From positions 1 to 64,000 of the forward strand of contig JABRWF010000006.1 of assembly GCA_018343915.1 (NCBI GenBank): 64,000 nucleotides of DNA, written 5' to 3'. Source of the DNA: Agroathelia rolfsii (taxonomy: Eukaryota; Basidiomycota; Agaricomycetes; Amylocorticiales; Amylocorticiaceae). The position numbers were made by a program, and so were the translations under genes. The first letter of the stretch is position 1. Each line of letters opens with the position of its first letter. The notes beneath the pieces were generated by a model. That model saw nothing but the letters and a program-made list of their open reading frames with translations. It did no database searches and was not told where the DNA came from. This document shows, in pieces, positions 1-11,954 of this stretch.

Positions 1-50
1 AACCCCCTACCCCCCCCCCCCCCTAACCCCCCCCCTAACTAACCTAACAC
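1..50. repeat. Degenerate telomere-like C-rich tract at the chromosome end
   Basis: The first 50 bases are a run of C tracts broken by CTAA (variants of CCCTAA, the complement of TTAGGG), ending in CTAACTAACCTAACAC. The C-rich strand reads inward, as expected for the left end of a chromosome. The very long C runs may be partly sequencing error. Similar short tracts recur at about 474-502, 925-940, 1129-1151, 1565-1575 and 1975-1990, always between subtelomeric modules, so they mark places where telomere was once terminal. Confidence 0.8.
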
Positions 51-56
51 ATAGGT

Positions 57-146
57 CACGTGATCAGTAGGGGTTAGGTCACGTGGATTAGTCACGTGCC
101 TGTGAAGCACGTGACTCTGTCACGTGGTCTGGTTATAGATCACGTG
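57..146. promoter_or_regulatory. Cluster of six CACGTG (E-box) palindromes in module A
   Basis: CACGTG occurs at 57-62, 80-85, 93-98, 108-113, 121-126 and 141-146: six perfect palindromes in 90 bases. The cluster is retained in copies 2 and 3, though copy 3 lacks the first site through truncation. CACGTG is the classical site of bHLH proteins such as Cbf1, Pho4 and USF. Whether a protein binds here is inference; the array could be a promoter for the repeat RNA or a subtelomeric binding platform. Confidence 0.6.
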
Positions 147-351
147 TTTTTCATGTGACCTTGCTGTAAGGTTAGTAAGCACGTACTGCTTATTACTAAT
201 TATTAGCGATTTTTTAGTCATTCCGATGCGGATTTGATCTTATCGATCGGCGTTGGTAAGCGTCCCGCTCATGGATTACCAATCGCCTTCGGCGATTGGG
301 CTAGGTAAGCAAGATAACATTAGTCACCCTTAGGCTGATTACGTGTGTAGA

Positions 352-436
352 CTCGACTAAGCAGGTCCTGATGAGCCCTTTAAAGGGCGAAACGGGTATG
401 CTGTGGACTAACCATCCACCCGTTGACCCAGTCGAG
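352..436 (+). ncRNA. Hammerhead ribozyme candidate A1 (type I, intact core)
   Basis: Core CTGATGA lies at 368-374. Stem II is GCCC/GGGC with loop TTTAAA, and GAAA is at 389-392. Stem III is CGGGT (393-397) with ACCCG (418-422). The cleavage triplet is GTT (422-424), with predicted cut between 424 and 425. Stem I pairs GGTC with GACC next to the core and CTCGACT (352-358) with AGTCGAG (430-436), with an internal loop between them like those used for loop-loop contacts. All invariant core nucleotides are present, including the A15.1-U16.1 pair. GTT is a permitted but not optimal triplet. Known context: hammerheads of this class occur in Penelope-like retroelements and retrozymes. Confidence 0.75.
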
Positions 437-502
437 CCCCCCCTGCTCCTCTCACGAGTTTTATTTGCCATCCTCCCCCTAACCCCTAACTAACCTAACA
501 CG

Positions 503-924
503 TAGGTCACGTGATCAGTAGGGGTTAGGTCACGTGGATTAGTCACGTGCCTGTGAAGCACGTGACTTCGTCACGTGGTCTGGTTATAGATCACGTGTTT
601 TTCACGTGACCTTGCTGTAAGGTTAGTAAGCACGTACTGCTTATTACTAATTGTTAGCAATTTTTAGTCACTCCGATGCGGATCTGATCTTATCGATTGG
701 CGTTGGTAAGCGTCCCGTTCACGGATTACCGATCGCCTTCGGCGATCGGGCTAGGTAAGCAAGATAACATTAGTCACCCTTAGGCTGATTATGTGTGTAG
801 ACTCGACTAAGCAGGTCCTGATGAGCCCTTTAAAGGGCAAAACGGGTATGCTGTGGACTAACCATCCACCCGTTGACCCAGTCGAGCCCCCCCTGCTCCT
901 CTCACGAGTTTTATTTGCCATCCA
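503..924 (+). repeat. Subtelomeric module A, copy 2
   Basis: Near-identical to copy 1 over its full length. Differences include a paired change in the hairpin at 729-749 and a change of the catalytic G12 position of the hammerhead core to A (position 839). It is flanked by telomere-like tracts on both sides. Confidence 0.75.
802..886 (+). ncRNA. Hammerhead ribozyme candidate A2 (G12 mutated)
   Basis: Same architecture as A1: CTGATGA at 818-824, stems I-III preserved. Position 839, which should be the catalytic G12 of the GAAA element, is A, so the core reads AAAA. From known hammerhead biochemistry, loss of G12 strongly impairs cleavage, so this copy is probably inactive. Confidence 0.6.
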
Positions 925-940
925 CCCCCCTAACCCCCTA

Positions 941-1130
941 TACAAGATTACTCATCCCTTAAATTAGATCGGACACGCATCACGGACCCGATCGGGATGA
1001 CAAAAGCCTCCCTACGTAATACAAGACTGGTCCTGATGAGCATATAAGCGAAATGGGTTGGGTGGGCTGACAACTCACCCCCATTGACCCGTCTGCCCCG
1101 CTCGCCTTCGGCTCGCGATTTATTCAACCA
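941..1130 (+). repeat. Subtelomeric module B, copy 1 (5'-truncated)
   Basis: Matches the last 190 bases of the longer module B copy at 1576-1977 and starts abruptly at TACAAGATTACTC right after a telomere-like tract. It keeps the hammerhead-like motif (1024-1094) and the common 3' end (GCGATTTATTCAACC). A shared 3' end with a variable 5' end is the signature of reverse transcription primed at the element's 3' end. Confidence 0.75.
1024..1094 (+). ncRNA. Hammerhead ribozyme candidate B1 (intact core, short stem II)
   Basis: CTGATGA is at 1033-1039 and GAAA at 1050-1053. Stem II is short (GC...GC). Stem III pairs TGGG (1054-1057) with CCCA (1080-1083), extended by an inner GGGTGGG/CTCACCC helix. 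The cleavage triplet is ATT with predicted cut after 1085. Stem I pairs AGAC-x-GGTC with GACC-x-GTCT. Its sequence outside the core differs strongly from family A while the fold is kept, which argues against chance. Confidence 0.7.
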
Positions 1131-1151
1131 CCCCCTAACCCCCTAACCCTA

Positions 1152-1564
1152 GATCAGTAGGGGTTAGGTCACGTGGATTAGTCACGTGCCTGTGAAGCAC
1201 GTGACTCTGTCACGTGGTCTGGTTATAGATCACGTGTTTTTCATGTGACCTTGCTGTAAGGTTAGTAAGCACGTACTGCTTATTACTAATTGTTAGCGAT
1301 TTTTAGTCATTCCAATGCGGACTTGATCTTATCGATTGGCGTTGGTAAGCGTCCCGCTTATGGATTACCGATCGCCTTTGGCGATCGGGCTAGGTAAGCA
1401 AGATAACATTAGTCACCCTTAGGCTGATTATGTGTGTAGACTCGACTAAGCAGGTCCTGATGAGCCCTTTAAAGGGCAAAACGGGTATGCTGTGGACTAA
1501 CCATCCACCCGTTGACCCAGTCGAGCCCCCCCTGCTCCTCTCTACGAGTTTTATTTGCCATCCT
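1152..1564 (+). repeat. Subtelomeric module A, copy 3 (slightly 5'-truncated)
   Basis: Third A copy. It begins at GATCAGTAGGGG, about 12 bases into copies 1 and 2, directly after CCCTAACCCTA. It shares the G12-to-A change of copy 2 (position 1478). Its 3' end abuts ACCCCTAACCG. Confidence 0.75.
1441..1525 (+). ncRNA. Hammerhead ribozyme candidate A3 (G12 mutated)
   Basis: Third family A copy: CTGATGA at 1457-1463, stems intact, but G12 is A at 1478, as in A2. It is probably inactive and shares ancestry with A2. Confidence 0.6.
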
Positions 1565-1575
1565 ACCCCTAACCG

Positions 1576-1977
1576 GGTCCCGGCTATCAAGGTAACCGGC
1601 AAGTATCACGTGACTAACCTCACGTGACTTATAGGTCTAGGCCCATGGAGCTAGTCACATGCCCAGTCACGTGTTCAAGGTCTAGAACATCCGATTGGCC
1701 GCCGGCCCCACGTAACGTCGGACTAGTCACCCCGACATCGGCCTCCAATCGGCCTCCTTTACTCATCATAAAGGTGCGCTTCTCTATACAAGATTACTCA
1801 TCCCTTAAATTAGATCGGACACGCATCACGGACCCGATCGGGATGACAAAAGCCTCCCTACGTAATACAAGACTGGTCCTGATGAGTATATAAGCGAAAT
1901 GGGTTGGGTGGGCTGACAACTCACCCCCATTGACCCGTCTGCCCCGCTTGCCTTCGGCTCGCGATTTATTCAACCAC
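1576..1977 (+). repeat. Subtelomeric module B, copy 2 (longer copy)
   Basis: The last 190 bases match module B copy 1; about 210 further bases lie upstream. The upstream part has CACGTG sites near 1610-1630 and 1665, and an inverted repeat in which CCGATTGG (about 1690) can pair with CCAATCGG (about 1745), giving a long stem-loop. A hammerhead-like motif is at 1870-1940, and the 3' end abuts CCCCCTAACCCC. Confidence 0.7.
1870..1940 (+). ncRNA. Hammerhead ribozyme candidate B2 (intact core)
   Basis: CTGATGA is at 1879-1885, followed by GTATATAAGC as stem-loop II, then GAAAT, the long stem III, the triplet ATT, and stem I GACC/GGTC with AGAC/GTCT. Stem II starts G-T instead of G-C compared with B1, giving a G-T wobble in the second pair. 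The invariant core is intact. Confidence 0.65.
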
Positions 1978-1992
1978 CCCCCTAACCCCAAA

Positions 1993-2673: not shown

Positions 2674-3680
2674 TGTTAAAAGGGTTATGATATAGAATGT
2701 AATGCACGTGTGCACTACTGTAAACCTTGTTTAAACCAAATACTTACTTGTGGTAGAAAAGTGCAGGGTTAGTTATCTTGGTAGATAGGCTTGGATCTAC
2801 AAGAAATTGGAAGCGATTAGTTTACTTCTATATCTTTAATATAAGACTTAGCCGGTGTCCCTTTGAGACTACCTACTTATTTTCCCTTTAGGAAAGGCTT
2901 GTTGTCTTATGGTAGACTTAGTAAGTCTATTAGTGAAGTTAGTACTCTAGGAGCTAGTCTTGTAGACTATTTAACTCACTATTTTTGAGTGAAATAACTT
3001 GTCATTTCCAGCCAAATTTGCTGGTGCTTATATAATACAAAATATTCTAATTTCTACAAGATTAGTAAGCCAATCCTGTGCTTATCTAATCCACTTAGTA
3101 AGAAGGATTGCTTACAAATCAGCTTATAAATCAGCTTAGTAATATTCCTATTTGCTGAATAATATGCTTGGTAAGCAATCTGTGTGCTTAGTAAGTAATT
3201 TGTATAGTATTAGTAAGTAAAATGTCTATTGATCTCAATATCCTATTATTAGATCTGTATTAGTAATATTTTATAAATATTACTAATATTATGAATTTGC
3301 TTAGTAAATATTTTGGTAATTTATAAGCAAGGATCTAGGGTGTGAAAAATCAATTAGTAATATTCACAATGATTATTGAGAAATGAATATTTAAATGGAA
3401 TTGTTTAATATTTATGAAAAGATATTCATAAATGATAAAGTCAAGTGACCTCAGATATGATAATCTTATCTCTGATAAGATTAGATATAATGAAATATTG
3501 AAAATATTAAATAAAAGAATATATGCATGTAAAGAATTGTTAATATCTCAACAATGAATGGTTGTAAAATCATGAAATAAATAATCATGTATGACATGAT
3601 GTTAGATGATTATTTGAAGTATTCATTGGAATTATTGGAAAGATATGAAGCTTGTAAATATTCAATCTTTCAACAACTAA
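2669..3680 (+). mobile_element. Solo LTR 1 with 5-bp target duplication ACTAA
   Basis: The element runs 2674-3675 (1002 bp), starts TGTTAAA and ends TTTCAACA. It is flanked by perfect direct repeats ACTAA (2669-2673 and 3676-3680). TG...CA ends, short inverted termini and a 5-bp duplication define an LTR-retrotransposon long terminal repeat. No internal coding region is present, so it is a solo LTR left by recombination. It is AT-rich. Strand assignment is by alignment with LTR 2 only. Confidence 0.85.
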
Positions 3681-3969
3681 TACTAGTTACAAATTTTCAT
3701 TTTCTCTACCATGGCCAACAGCTAGGGCGTCATGTTCATCCAAGTCTTTAAGGGTAGGCCTTTCCCACAAAGACGTCACAAATCTTCATTTTCTCTACCG
3801 CATCGGACAGCTGGGCCGCCGTCTTCATCCACATCTTTAATGGTGAGCATTCCTGACAAAAAATCACAGATCTTTGTTTTATCCACCACGTCCAATAGCT
3901 GGGCCGCCATCTTTATCCATATCTTCAACAGTGGGCATTCCCAAGAAAAAAATCACAGATCTTCATTTT
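3681..3969 (+). repeat. Tandem 88-bp repeat derived from an Hsp70 exon
   Basis: Three complete and one interrupted copies of an approximately 88-bp unit. The best preserved copy reads PDKKSQIF...NSWAAIFIHIFNSGHS, which aligns with the Hsp70 substrate-binding-domain segment P-KKSQIFST--DNQPGVLIQVFEGE. The fourth copy is split by LTR 2 and continues at 5008. The unit length is not a multiple of three and copies carry frameshifts, so this is a decayed internal tandem duplication within an Hsp70 pseudogene. Confidence 0.7.
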
Positions 3970-5007
3970 TGTTAAACTATTGTAGTTCTTGGGTTGTATA
4001 GTGTGGCTATATGCTAGCTCACAAGTTACCTGTTGTGAAGCAAACACTTACTTGTAGAGAAAAGTGCAGGCTTGGGTGGTTTCCTAAGAATAGGCAAAGT
4101 TTCCTAGGTAGGAAGCGGTTAGTAACTATGCTATACTTAAGATAAGACTGTAGCCGGTGTCCCTTTGAGACTACCTACTTGTTTCCCTTTAGGAAAGGCT
4201 TGTTGTCTTGTCTTGTAGACTTTGTAAGTCTAGGGTGAAGTTAGTACTCTAGGAGCTAGTCTTGTAGACTATTTAACTCACTATTTTCGAGTGAAAATAA
4301 CTTGTTATTTCCAGCCGAATTTGCTGGTGCTTATATAATACAAAATATTCTAATTTCTACAAGATTAGTAAGCCAATCCTGTGCTTATCTAATCCGCTTA
4401 GTAAGAAGGGTTGCTTACAAATCAGCTTATAAATCAGCTTAGTAATATTCCTATTTGCTGAATAATATGCTTGGTAAGCAATCTGTGTGCTTAGTAAGTA
4501 ATTTGTATAGTATTAGTAAGTAAAATGTCTATCGATCTCAATATCCTATTATTAGATCTGTATTAGTAATATTTTATAAATATTACTAATATTATGAACT
4601 TGCTTAGTAAATATTTTGGTGATTTATAAGCAAGGATCTAGGGCGTGAAAAATCAATTAGTAATATTCACAATGATTATTAAGAAATGAATATTTAAATG
4701 GAATTGTTTAATATTTATGAAAAAGATATTCATAAATGATAAAGTCAAGTGACTTTAGATATGATAATCTTATCTCTGATAAGATTAGATATAATGAAAT
4801 ATTGAAAATATTAAATAAAAGAATATATGCATATTATTTCAATGAATATATGCATGTAAAGAATTGTTAATATCTCAACAATGAACGGTTGTAAAATCAT
4901 GAAATAAATAATCATGTATGACATGATATTAGATGATTATTTGAAGTATTCATTGGAATTTTTGGAAAGATATGAAGCTTGTAAATATTCAATCTTTCAA
5001 CAATTTT
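3965..5007 (+). mobile_element. Solo LTR 2 with 5-bp target duplication ATTTT
   Basis: The element runs 3970-5002 (1033 bp), same family as LTR 1: TGTTAAAC...TTTCAACA, flanked by perfect ATTTT repeats (3965-3969, 5003-5007). It differs from LTR 1 mainly by a diverged first 60 bases and by a short duplication of the GAATATATGCAT stretch near 4820-4850. Because each copy has its own target duplication, the two are independent insertions and not the ends of one element. It inserted into the fourth copy of the Hsp70-derived repeat. Confidence 0.85.
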
Positions 5008-5400
5008 CTCTGCCATGGCCGACAGCTAGGCCGCCGTCTTCATTCAGGTTTTTAAGGGTGAGTATTTGCTAACCAAGGACAACAACCTGCTTGGCAAGTT
5101 TGAGCTCAATGGTATTCCTCCCACTCCTTGTGGTGTTCCTCAGATTGAGGTCACCTTCAAGATTGACGCTAACAGTATTATGAAGGTCTCCACTGCCAAT
5201 AAAGGCACTGGCAAATCTGAGCAGATCACAATCTCAAACAAGAAGGGCCATCTGTCTCGGGAGGATATGGACTGCATGGTTGCTCAGGCCCGAGCTTTGT
5301 CAATAGATGAGCATATATTCAATGAAAGTCTCTTGCTCTTTGAGAATGAGATTGTAACTAAAGCAAGTGCCTATATAGATATCAACCACAGATTGCTGTG
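5008..5400 (+). pseudogene. Hsp70 substrate-binding-domain fragment
   Basis: The reading from 5066 ([19 protein letters not shown], then [20 protein letters not shown] and [17 protein letters not shown]) is unmistakably the beta-sandwich and start of the lid of a cytosolic or ER Hsp70. It lacks the nucleotide-binding domain in cis, and the lid beyond about 5340 degenerates into unrelated sequence. It continues, across LTR 2, the tandem repeat at 3681-3969. It is a retained fragment, not a working gene. Confidence 0.8.
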
Positions 5401-8206: not shown

Positions 8207-9171
8207 AATGTAAAGGGCGTAAAATTACAAGTCACAGATAAGTGAAAAAACTAAAATCAAATAACAAAAGAGGCCTGCTCTTGAGAGGACCCAAAGAAGA
8301 AATGAAAGATAAAAAGATAAAAAGAAAGACCAAAGCCCAGGGGTCAACTGGGAGAGACGGGCGAAGAGAGACGAAAGAAAGTTGGGGCCAGGAGGGCATT
8401 ATAGTATCTGTCGCCTAGAGGTACATCCGAGTCCATGGATAGACCAAGTGATCTGATAGGTTTGATCGTTGTCATCATCAGATGGTGGGTACCAAGCGTT
8501 GCACACTTTCGGCTGCCATTGGCTCACAACGGTTGTTATTACAGGCCAGGGGATTGGAAGAACGGAATTGAACATTCGAAAAGCTGTTGTTCTTTTGCGT
8601 GAAGAAGATAGTATTAAGGAGACAAGCCCGGTAGAAATATTGCCAGATGGCAATGTGAGTTTTGAAAAGTCTTGTAGGTATCCATCAGAAGCCTTGAAGC
8701 TGTGCTGCCAGTGGCCGACTCGAACTCGGCCTGTAACCACTAGCAGCGCCCTACGGCCCGATACGACAACCATGCGGTATACACCTCAGCCTAATAATAC
8801 CTAATACCAATCGATGTGGTCCGTATTATACGTCACTGGTGGTCTTATACCAGTATGTATGGTCTATTGCAACAGTAAAGGAAACGTCAACAAATTTAAT
8901 AATAAAGAGCGTATAGGACAAACAAAATAAATTCAGCACAAGATACGAATATGAAAAAAGGGGTCAAGTATTGTAGACGAGCCAAGGCAGTGTAACTCGC
9001 ATGTGTTCAGAAGATAAGCGTATAATCAAATTCCACGAAAATGTATTAATATCATATATGGATCAAAGTAGCCAGTTGCAACTATTCGACTCCAGCGCAC
9101 ACCGTGATCACGGAACCAGACTTGCTGAAGGAACAAGCGTACCAATAACATAGGGACTATAGGATAATACT
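8207..9171. other. Intergenic region with one long hairpin
   Basis: Contains the CT-rich upstream region of the SH3 gene (to about 8390) and an unassigned open frame on the minus strand (8399-8773, 124 codons) without recognisable domains. A hairpin lies at 8704-8747, in which GCTGCCAGTGG pairs with CCACTAGCAGC with one mismatch. The rest (8800-9171) is AT-rich with nothing recognised. Confidence 0.45.
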
Positions 9172-11954
9172 TCAAGTTCTCGACACGCCGTAGGAAATGG
9201 TATGTGGGCGACCGTTCGTTTGACTCAAGCTAAGTTCAGATATGGCGGGTAAATCCTGGGGAACGGAGGGAAAGGCATCAAAGATGCTTTCATCAAATAT
9301 CCCGGTTGAGTTAGGGCTTGGAAGGAAGGTAGAAGAGGAATCCTGTGACAACCACGAGCTGGGGCGGTGGAAACCATCCGCAGGATTGCCTGTGGTAGGG
9401 TGCGAAGGTGATGGGATAAGAGAATTTTGGGTTTGAGTCGATGAGTAAGGGTCCAGTGATGGCCCTCGAGAGGGCATGGAAGGAACGTCGGAAGTAATAG
9501 ATGCATTATCTAGTCGGTCGATACTTCAGATAAAATCTCGAACCAAATACAAAAGAACATACCAGAGGTACTAGCACCAGACTTGGTCCTCTTCCTTTGT
9601 AATAATTTGCCAGCGAAGCTAGCTGCACGCCCAATCCCTATACCACTTTTCTTTCTTGCTAAAGACCAGGCGCGTCCACTCTTGACAGACATCGCATCTG
9701 TAGGGTGTAAAGATGATTCATAGGAATCATCACCTGGCGTTACCAGACAGTCGTCATAGGATGTTTCGGATGTGGTTGATATACTTTGTCTGTGATGGGC
9801 GGAAGCTTCGTATGCCGAGACTGGACGACCGGTAGTCTTCTTGCGGAAGGTCGAGAAATACCGCGGCACAGAAGGTTTGGAAGGGATGTTAGGCACGGTT
9901 TCACCTTGGGAAGTTGCTTGGATTTCGGAAGAAGGCTCAAGATAGCTCAACTGCTCGGGAGTTACGATGGTGGGTACACCCGTGGGTGTGACCGTCGAAG
10001 TATTCAACTGAATTCGCACATCTGAAGTAGATGTCAAGAGACTGTCACTCTGCAACAGACTGGTTGAACGAGGTCCTGGGGTGATAATCTTGTGTTCTGT
10101 GGTCGAAGGAGCTACATCGACAGAAATTTCTTTGTCGGAAGCCTCTGGGGCATCCAAACTTGGTGATGGTGATCGTGCAGAAGGAATAGGGTCAACAGAT
10201 GGTTCCGCTGGGGCTATTTCGGTGAAGTCGCCGCCTTCCTGTAGATGTAGTTCTAGTAGTGCGGCATTCTCCAGGAGCATTTCCAGATCACCGTAGCCAG
10301 GTGTCGACGGAGCCTGCAAGCTTCTGACAGCGGTCCGTTCAATTCCAGATGACTGAGACGTCTCGGACAAGGAGGGTATAGCAGACCCCGTCTTGATTTG
10401 GGACAACATGATAGGCTGAGGCTCGGAGACTTTGCGATGAACTACGGCTTTGAAGGATGATTTGGTTTCCCGTGCTTTGCTGCTAGCGGCGCTGCTGTTG
10501 GATTCAACACCGCTGGACTCGATGTCACTATGCCGCGTTGTAGATAAAGATGCGGAAGATGGTTGGTATTCCTGGGAGGTCGCAATTTTCAATGCCTTAC
10601 CACTGGAGGCAGAACCTTCGATATCGTAAGGTGAGATTCTATGTGGCGGGTGAGATTCTGATTTAATTGTAGACGTCATAGCAGCTGAGTCAGCATGGTC
10701 ATCCAACTTGGGGGAGACAACAACAGTAGTTGCGCGACTAGTCGGCTGAATAACGCGTGATGCGACACGAACATCAACCGGTTTGAAATGGATATTGATA
10801 CTTGAACTTGTCAGATCTAAATCACCCACACTAGTCTCGGCTTCCAATTCAGAGAAGGAAGTCTCGTCGACGACTTGGGGTTTGGTTAAAGACGAAGGCA
10901 CTTCACGATTTGATATGTCCAATTGAGACGTTATAGGTGCTGGAGCCATTGCCAAAGCGTCGGCACCCTCAGATGGAGAGGTACTTGGATATCAAGCGTT
11001 AAAACGCCAGAATGGAAGATTGAAATTACCCACTCACATTGATTCTTGCTTTGGACTAACTTTCAGGTTGAACGTAGAGGTAGTAGGGGTTTTTTCCGAC
11101 TCGAGAATCGGATGATCGGGAGATGAGACCGTTGAAACAGAAAAATCAGAGATTCCCTTTGCATTCGACAGGCTTACATCCTTGATGGACGACTCGAAAG
11201 ATGCCGATCTATCAATAGGTGCTATGGCAAGCCAATGCAAGTGGCCTCAGATATCATAGGACCCGTAAAACCCAAAAGTATTATCTAACCTTTGTTCAAC
11301 AGAGAAGCGGCCATGTCCGGGGATATCTTGTCAGTGATCGTGTCTTGATGAAATGTATGTCCAATGGTTTCATTGGGAACAGATGCAGGTAACATTGTTA
11401 CATCAGAAGAGAGCTGAGGAGACTGTGGAAGAGAAAGGGTGTTGGAAACGGGTGAGACCAAGGGCGTGGTGGGAGTATCGTGCTTGGTGGAAGCGAGGAC
11501 CCGTGATGCACTATCTGGTGACGGGGACGCGACACGGGACTCGTCCGGTAGCATGGGTGAGGATGAGCGACTGCTTGTTTGACTGAGTGCAGAAGTGCCG
11601 CTGGCGCTCCTAGCATATCCCGGTATACGATTGCCATACAGCTCTTTACTTTTATTCCCTTCAGGCTGGGTAGGTGGTGCGCCCATACCAAAACTTCCAC
11701 GTGGAACAGGAACGCCGCCTTTTTTTTCAAACCTGGCAATCTTGTCTCTCAGTGCATTAGCATTTCCAGCACCAGCACTCGCTGGTGGGGCGGTTGGTGG
11801 TGAACCAGTTGGCTTGTGCGTGGGCGGTGTGACATTGCGCTGCTGCAGTGCTGCTATCCTCTCTTTGAGATTAACGGGTGGGGGTGGACCTCCTGACCTG
11901 ATATAAAATACCTTAGACCAGGAAACGCATGGCTCGAGAACCGTTTACTTACAT
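9172..11954 (-). CDS. Aim21-like, largely disordered protein (start codon split by an intron)
   Basis: Exons, minus strand: 11954-11953, 11897-11290, 11221-11038, 10983-9563, 9509-9172; introns of 55, 68, 54 and 53 nt; total 2553 nt, 850 residues. The ATG is split: AT ends exon 1 before GTAAGT and G opens exon 2, giving MSGGPPPPVNLKERIAALQQ. Early residues carry two short basic helices (LKERIAALQQR and ALRDKIARFEKKGG) and PVPRGSFGMGAPP. The remainder is Ser/Thr/Pro-rich and disordered, with a basic patch (SFAGKLLQRKRTKSG) near the C-terminus. Basidiomycete proteins of this layout are annotated as altered inheritance of mitochondria 21, an actin-patch regulator in yeast; I hold that assignment loosely. 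The gene model itself is well supported by frame closure at every junction. Confidence 0.75.

Follow-up and report, generated by a model that had tools for sequence, protein, structure and literature searches.

Short hammerhead-bearing modules at chromosome ends of the fungus Agroathelia rolfsii, probable telomere-attached elements with a Penelope-type reverse transcriptase as neighbour

Hammerhead folds in the first 2 kb of a chromosome end

The window analysed here is the first 64 kb, i.e. the left end, of contig C6 of the basidiomycete Agroathelia rolfsii (JABRWF010000006.1, assembly GCA_018343915.1; genome of 37.67 Mb in 8 contigs). Its first 2 kb hold five hammerhead-like folds, all on one strand and all of type I, each close to the inner 3' end of a short module belonging to one of two families, A and B. 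We propose that these modules are probably non-autonomous, telomere-attached retroelements that are copied in trans onto the G-rich overhang via their C-rich 3' end.

The hammerhead cores start at positions 368, 818, 1033, 1457 and 1879 (Table 1). They show the features expected of type I, namely CUGAUGA and GAAA cores, three helices, an open stem I and an NUH cleavage triplet. The GAAA box is found in the copies at 368, 1033 and 1879, and it reads AAAA (G12 to A) in those at 818 and 1457. A previous sequence-only reading of this DNA had listed five folds, three with intact cores and two with AAAA, and our sequence check found them at the same places; the cut sites it had put after 424, 1085 and 1931 were predicted again at these positions. 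G12 is described as the general base in the consulted passages of PMC6155905, and the A12 copies at 818 and 1457 are for this reason probably inactive. At least some of the G12 copies, judged by their sequence, are likely to cleave.

Could such folds arise by chance, or be a palindrome-driven look-alike that is no ribozyme? The region is rich in CACGTG palindromes, the copies are missed by Rfam at its curated scores, and family A has a competing fold, all of which would fit a look-alike. A strict descriptor was used as a control, requiring CTGATGA, a stem II of at least 2 bp, GAAA, a stem III of at least 5 bp and a stem I of at least 4 bp. It finds 3 sites in the window, all inside modules (the GAAA copies). 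When the window was shuffled 60 times with dinucleotides preserved, the same descriptor found no site; 3000 shuffles of the first 2 kb yielded one, and 391,172 strand-bases of other real DNA (window and chromosome ends) none, which agrees with the former statement that chance does not explain the fold. The two boxes alone (CTGATGA-N4-30-GAAA) are less telling, with 6 matches at 5 places versus 1.86 expected, a number reached by 1 of 100 shuffles.

A covariance model was built from eight A and B core sequences, which match it by construction, and was run over all 16 chromosome ends (the window and 15 further ends of 10 kb). It detects 21 strong copies, 12 of family A and 9 of family B, one of the latter truncated within the fold, and the sole further match has an E-value of 0.31. 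G12 is kept in 17 of the 20 complete copies and replaced by A12 in the other 3. None of the 8 complete B copies has a defect in the core boxes, which are also complete in 9 of the 12 A copies; two A copies at the C2R end have weakened hammerhead stems. The helix cells are 93% paired, a value that 0 of 500 shuffles reach and that drops to 28.7-45.0% when the helices are slid. Stem III has one compensatory difference between A and B, C-G to U-A. With these controls a look-alike is extremely unlikely, and we regard the hammerhead fold as almost certainly real. The covariance check suggested earlier thus had a divided outcome: Rfam models gave nothing at the gathering score, which taken literally is one of the outcomes that the earlier reading had named as refuting, and the model derived from the modules separates the copies well.

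Thermodynamic folding gives a mixed picture. The three-way junction, with one additional closing pair, is the best fold of A at 1457 and of B at 1033; for the B copy at 1879 it is the junction without stem II, and the A copy at 368 adopts a different fold. Relative to shuffles, two A copies reach z values of -3.05 and -3.44, and three B copies -1.62, -1.22 and -1.51. Constrained folding, covering 5 of the 6 distinct A sequences and all 4 distinct B sequences, places the hammerhead 1.3-1.6 kcal/mol above the best fold, apart from the two C2R copies of A (5.0 and 7.1); for the B sequences and the A12 copy the difference comes mostly from the additional closing pair, or from stem II in the copy at 1879. 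In B, the hammerhead appears unprompted in the consensus fold of the whole module. Compensatory pairs in the whole-module consensus folds number 3 in B, outside the hammerhead, and 2 in A.

Several results weigh against this reading. Rfam at gathering thresholds gives 0 matches in the whole window; a relaxed scan of positions 1-2100 returns just the three A copies with RF00008 (21.0-22.8 bits, E 0.085-0.27, for a gathering score of 48.5) and no B copy, and RF00163 run on the whole genome has one sub-threshold match, outside the modules. The cleavage triplets are GUU and AUU, permitted under the NUH rule; GUC is the preferred triplet of hammerheads. The hammerhead is not the best fold in 4 of the 5 A sequences folded, a rival fold being better by 1.6 kcal/mol in the two ordinary A types and by the larger gaps given above in the two C2R copies, and the whole-module consensus of A lacks the hammerhead core and has a rival fold in its place. 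Overall covariation terms of the two whole-module folds are unfavourable (+4.14 and +3.03), 418 of 500 shuffles reach the observed number of pair changes on both sides, and the hairpin of A, taken by itself, is no better than its control (112-120 of 500). Variability of the hammerhead versus the body is 1.9% versus 3.7% in A and 5.1% versus 4.4% in B, so that conservation of the hammerhead over the body is not clearly better. The case for the hammerhead rests on the core, the helices and the recurrent 3' placement; support from covariation is thin, and strong covariation or conservation is no part of it.

Anatomy of the two module families

Module A is about 448 bp long and module B about 415 bp. 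Their longest stop-to-stop frames have 58 codons in A and 91 in B, and a Penelope-type reverse transcriptase (RT) is not encoded by them. From the telomere side, a module consists of a start in phase with the telomere repeat, a CACGTG array, a body, the hammerhead, a tail of about 35 nucleotides (nt) and CCCCCTAACCCC. The hammerhead does lie just before the 3' end of each module, as had been noted. The A and B bodies are unrelated in sequence. Both families share the series GACT...GGTCCTGATGAG...GCGAAA...TTGACCC(A)GTC and a similar tail end, and since core, helix strands and tail end are common to both, the ribozyme-tail cassette is homologous in A and B. This revises the earlier idea of two unrelated families keeping one fold: it is one cassette on two unrelated bodies. 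The shared cassette sequence rules out that the fold arose separately in the two families.

Twenty-one of the 28 CACGTG sites of the window fall within modules (6 in A, 3 in B). On bodies that are otherwise unrelated, this array could possibly be a promoter of the basic helix-loop-helix type or an array that binds chromosome ends or proteins. The dense CACGTG stretches, in the 5' third of both families, cover positions 57-146, 508-608, 1170-1236 and 1607-1673.

Table 1. Coordinates of telomeric tract, modules and predicted hammerheads in the window
Feature	Position	Strand	Remarks
Terminal telomere-like tract, C-rich strand	1..41	+	impure here; clean CCCCCTAA repeats at other ends
Module A copy A1, full-length	32..479	+	448-bp reference; begins in telomeric register
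Six CACGTG palindromes, 5' third of A1	57..146	.	three in B2
Hammerhead A1, type I	352..436	+	G12 intact; predicted cut after 424; stem I CTCGACT(aagca)GGTC/GACC(c)AGTCGAG; stem II GCCCU/AGGGC; stem III ACGGGU/ACCCGU
A1 3' tail and short telomere tract joining A2	437..484	+	tail ends GCCATCC at 473
Module A copy A2, full-length	483..929	+
Hammerhead A2	802..886	+	AAAA core, G12 to A, probably inactive; predicted site after 874
Module B copy B1, 5'-truncated at B211	938..1142	+	CTA (3 nt) common to telomere repeat at junction
Hammerhead B1	1024..1094	+	predicted cut after 1085; stem I AGAC(t)GGTC/GACC(c)GTCT; stem II GC/GC; stem III AUGG/CCAU + GGGUG/CACCC
Module A copy A3, 5'-truncated at A31	1152..1569	+
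Hammerhead A3	1441..1525	+	AAAA core, probably inactive; predicted site after 1513
Module B copy B2, full-length, innermost	1574..1992	+	tail and CCCCCCTAACCCC meet non-telomeric DNA at about 1990
Hammerhead B2	1870..1940	+	stem II has U-G wobble; predicted cut after 1931

Distribution at chromosome ends and truncation of the modules

The telomere repeat of this genome is TTAGGGGG, the repeat also given for Agaricus bisporus in the consulted part of PMC10100673. A CCCCCTAA-type tract opens 13 of the 16 contig ends; C3R and C8L lack a telomere tract and C5L starts with N. Module pieces, whose counts are lower bounds, were found at 8 of the 16 ends (C1R, C2L, C2R, C3L, C4L, C5R, C6L and C6R). 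All matching pieces, 9 of 9 for B and 14 of 14 for A, lie within 4.7 kb of a contig end with their 3' side inward. Together with the lack of long frames, this bears out the description of short non-coding modules at chromosome ends and contradicts a location mainly away from them. The pattern CTGATGAG-N4-24-GCGAAA has 28 matches genome-wide, 18 in modules and 10 elsewhere, for 6 matches of the reversed-pattern control. A scan of IMG/VR with the core pattern listed four matches, which we assume to be due to chance. Neighbouring copies differ by 2.5-4.6%, and some copies on different chromosomes by 1.3%; an origin of the arrays as a single rolling-circle product is ruled out by these values.

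The 5' ends of the modules are either full-length or cut at A31, A153, A233, B211 or B305. A sixth cut copy, at C3L 28-45, retains just 17-18 nt of the A tail. Telomere repeats lie directly outward of every cut 5' end. The 3' ends are intact beside telomere repeats, and one to three repeats separate the modules. By inspection, with no chance control, the cut end overlaps the telomere repeat by 2-3 nt in four of the five cases and by none in one; the sixth copy has 1 nt. Truncation alone cannot separate erosion from incomplete copying, because end loss followed by healing truncates in the same direction. Under erosion and incomplete copying alike, new units must attach by their 3' side, as reverse transcription from an overhang does. 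Addition by reverse transcription at chromosome ends is very likely in our view.

Some module arrays bear traces of other events. At C5R (L035), an old 3' remnant of module A (84%) is found at end coordinates 3017-3090, on the inner side of a 2.2-kb repeat, and younger A modules lie beyond that repeat. At C1R (L031), a B module is interrupted by an insertion of about 1 kb (end coordinates 572-1578) that has the same 5 bp of B on either side; the inserted DNA recurs at C4L, C7R and C8L and is perhaps a solo long terminal repeat. A second insertion, at C2R 291-1069, splits an A module with 7 bp repeated.

A Penelope-type reverse transcriptase next to the modules

The genome search for a Penelope-like RT that the sequence-only reading had called for led to an endonuclease-lacking frame adjoining modules at two tips. 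A 3.2-kb element lies just inside the telomere at C6R and C2L, in the same orientation as the modules. The order at both tips is telomere, RT element, telomere repeats and two or three A modules. The C6R element has a stop-to-stop frame of 919 codons (P0001), and C6R and C2L are the sole places in the genome where a match to it was found. Its relatives are 41-57% identical (among the 120 listed of 298). RVT_1 was found in 9 of the 25 sequences scanned and GIY-YIG in none, and the catalytic aspartates D469, D574 and D575 are invariant in all 25. Pfam gave no match on P0001, and neither P0001 nor its alignment retrieved an RT from the PDB by sequence, so that these searches by themselves do not place the protein; the fold comparison did give RT matches. 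Patterns derived from P0001 had no match in IMG/VR. The predicted structure averages 63 in the predicted local distance difference test, and most residues between 421 and 630 score above 80. Foldseek ranks 13 telomerase catalytic subunits first (E 2e-8 to 7e-7, with low template modelling scores of 0.23-0.40), followed by group II intron, LINE-1 and viral polymerases. By its relatives, the absence of GIY-YIG, its predicted fold and its telomeric place, the RT is assigned to the endonuclease-lacking, telomerase-like Penelope type. The frame is of the kind found in the basidiomycete endonuclease-lacking Penelope-like elements (Coprina).

Inspection by eye showed a short basic frame, with the ending CGCAAGTAATAA, near the 5' end of the C6R element (minus strand of L036, about 9560-9890). 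Its register differs from that of the RT frame, it follows an intron-like GTAAG...TTTAG, and it is possibly part of an upstream open reading frame (ORF).

On balance, we favour a Penelope-type RT over another enzyme as the agent of addition. Alternatively, telomerase itself could add the modules by occasionally taking module RNA as template, or the modules could be a host back-up for telomeres, the Penelope-type RT being merely a neighbour. A telomerase RNA-binding domain is encoded on C8, and the junctions have telomerase-type repeats with short overlaps, as this would require. However, Penelope-type telomere elements have been described with this 3' layout, and two of the module-bearing tips also carry a matching RT frame. 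We know of no precedent of telomerase copying a foreign template of module size. We therefore consider addition by telomerase very unlikely.

Proposed mechanism and spread by recombination

We suggest the following cycle for copying in trans. A transcript running from the tip inward would hold the body, the hammerhead, the tail and CCCCUAACCCC. The C-rich repeats of this RNA could pair with a free TTAGGGGG overhang, which an RT acting in trans would then lengthen, taking the module as template from its 3' end onward and often stopping short of full length. The new end would be re-capped by telomerase, and repeated cycles would give head-to-tail chains. The hammerhead cut, 45-50 nt before the tail end, could divide tandem transcripts into units or take the tail off the body. 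Its likeliest role would be template processing, and cleavage is probably gated, by the competing fold or by RT binding, because full-length copies require an uncut template.

Other data count against this scheme. Both RT copies are without the N-terminal part present in most aligned relatives, the C2L copy has one TAG, and no full-length autonomous RT copy was found in the assembly, in which three ends show no telomere tract. A hammerhead was looked for in the 3' region of the RT element and not found, either by a relaxed Rfam scan or by the module covariance model. Since the RT copies are truncated, one of them with a stop, and no hammerhead was found in them, no sequence ties the RT to recognition of the modules. 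A single 39-nt piece of B tail with a telomere-type repeat, 8.7 kb from the C6R end (L036, end coordinates 8748-8786), points the other way and is the sole exception in orientation. Finally, the C2L and C6R tips are collinear over 4.17 kb at 98.3%, by exchange or duplication of a whole chromosome end, and recombination between ends therefore also spreads modules.

This last point leads to another explanation, in which the modules are ordinary repeats of the subtelomere that recombination or break-induced replication has carried from one telomere tract to another, and the hammerhead is the fossil of a dead Penelope-like element that seeded them. Besides the collinear tips, it would account for the two C2L copies A1 and A3 being 0.4% apart with A2, 2.5-2.9% apart, lying between them, for the truncated RT copies, one with a stop, for the loss of G12 in 3 of the 20 complete cores and the two C2R copies that fold poorly as hammerheads, and for the absence of excess conservation in the B hammerhead. 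The array orders differ, however, and there are six distinct 5' truncation points with telomere repeats outward of each. Exchange between telomere tracts shifts whole blocks and does not by itself produce units with an intact 3' end and a truncated 5' end, although end loss with healing could. Retention of G12 in 17 of the 20 complete cores also argues against a mere fossil. Spread by recombination as the whole explanation appears unlikely to us.

A bolder form of the trans-copying proposal would make the modules telomere-specific retrozymes: a relative of telomerase would mobilise their non-coding, ribozyme-bearing RNA in trans, and this RNA would be copied again and again onto worn ends. This would be a second way of lengthening chromosomes derived from an RNA parasite, beside telomerase, with the hammerhead cut setting which RNA end meets the overhang. 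We consider it doubtful. Taken together, the folds seen by the earlier reading are real and sharper than first stated, and its interpretation is partly supported.

Comparison with known systems

According to the consulted parts of PMC6431247, a hammerhead at the 3' ends of bdelloid rotifer Terminons precedes telomere repeats in reverse complement, which may base-pair with the G-rich overhang; Terminons, whose RT is endonuclease-lacking, are 5'-truncated by short telomere stretches and stand in head-to-tail arrays. The modules resemble them in the 3' hammerhead with C-strand repeats, the 5' end facing the telomere, the truncation and the head-to-tail arrays. In contrast, Terminons as described there are ORF-bearing rotifer elements of up to 40 kb, whereas the modules are fungal, ORF-less and about 0.45 kb long. 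The module hammerhead also differs by a well-formed helix III and by the tail of about 35 nt before the repeats. A module is thus like a Terminon 3' end and yet no Terminon, because it encodes no RT; it is at most a non-autonomous relative. The HeT-A-type telomeric retrotransposons of Drosophila are stacked on chromosome ends by repeated reverse transcription, with an RT of another class and poly(A) attachment. The modules are similarly stacked, but here telomerase-type repeats coexist with them.

Penelope-like elements (PLEs) are linked with telomeres in Agaricus bisporus, as sections of PMC7473861 report. The C6R and C2L frame is like the endonuclease-lacking PLEs of basidiomycetes on the four grounds of its assignment; unlike them, the modules are ORF-less and carry a hammerhead, and none was found in the two RT copies. 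The hammerheads of PLEs and Terminons are termed minimal forms in passages of PMC7229834 and PMC7761336, the latter also naming PLEs and Terminons as likely mobilisers of non-LTR (long terminal repeat) retrozymes. Animal non-LTR retrozymes share with the modules a similar size, a type I hammerhead, the lack of an ORF and tandem repeats; unlike the modules, they are described in animals and yield circular RNAs in the part of PMC7229834 consulted, whereas the modules were found only at ends and have telomere repeats between units. For an endonuclease-bearing Penelope element, portions of PMC11167929 report that hammerhead mutants leave insertion in vitro unchanged, that the hammerhead cleaves only with protein, and that public data hold no RNA ends at the cut site. 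These results fit gated cleavage, and they also warn that hammerhead cleavage may be dispensable. Hammerheads away from telomeres occur in the basidiomycete Pleurotus ostreatus, as far as the consulted part of PMC5040776 tells. In the open-licence literature searched, no description of short fungal telomeric hammerhead elements was found. What is new here is a short fungal form that has no ORF and a full helix III; the layout was already known from rotifer Terminon 3' ends.

If copying in trans is true, telomeric Penelope elements would gain in a fungus a minimal ORF-less partner, related to them as short interspersed elements are to long ones. This would support the published proposal that Penelope or Terminon RTs mobilise small hammerhead repeats, and it would bear on the way in which chromosome ends are shared between telomerase and Penelope RTs. 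The role of Penelope and Terminon hammerheads would become testable here, as natural G12 and A12 copies sit side by side.

Other features of the window

The window also encodes a conserved protein of the Sas10/Utp3 type; among 120 listed of its 303 hits, the homologues with a name are agaricomycetes, none of them close. A direct repeat of about 1 kb (2734-3755 and 4038-5059, 88.7%) lies inward of the modules. Its kin are found at the C3L, C4L and C5R ends, near coding pieces that were labelled Copia-like by eye. Positions 3689-3969 hold a degenerate tandem repeat of 89 bp (3.2 copies, 75% matches).

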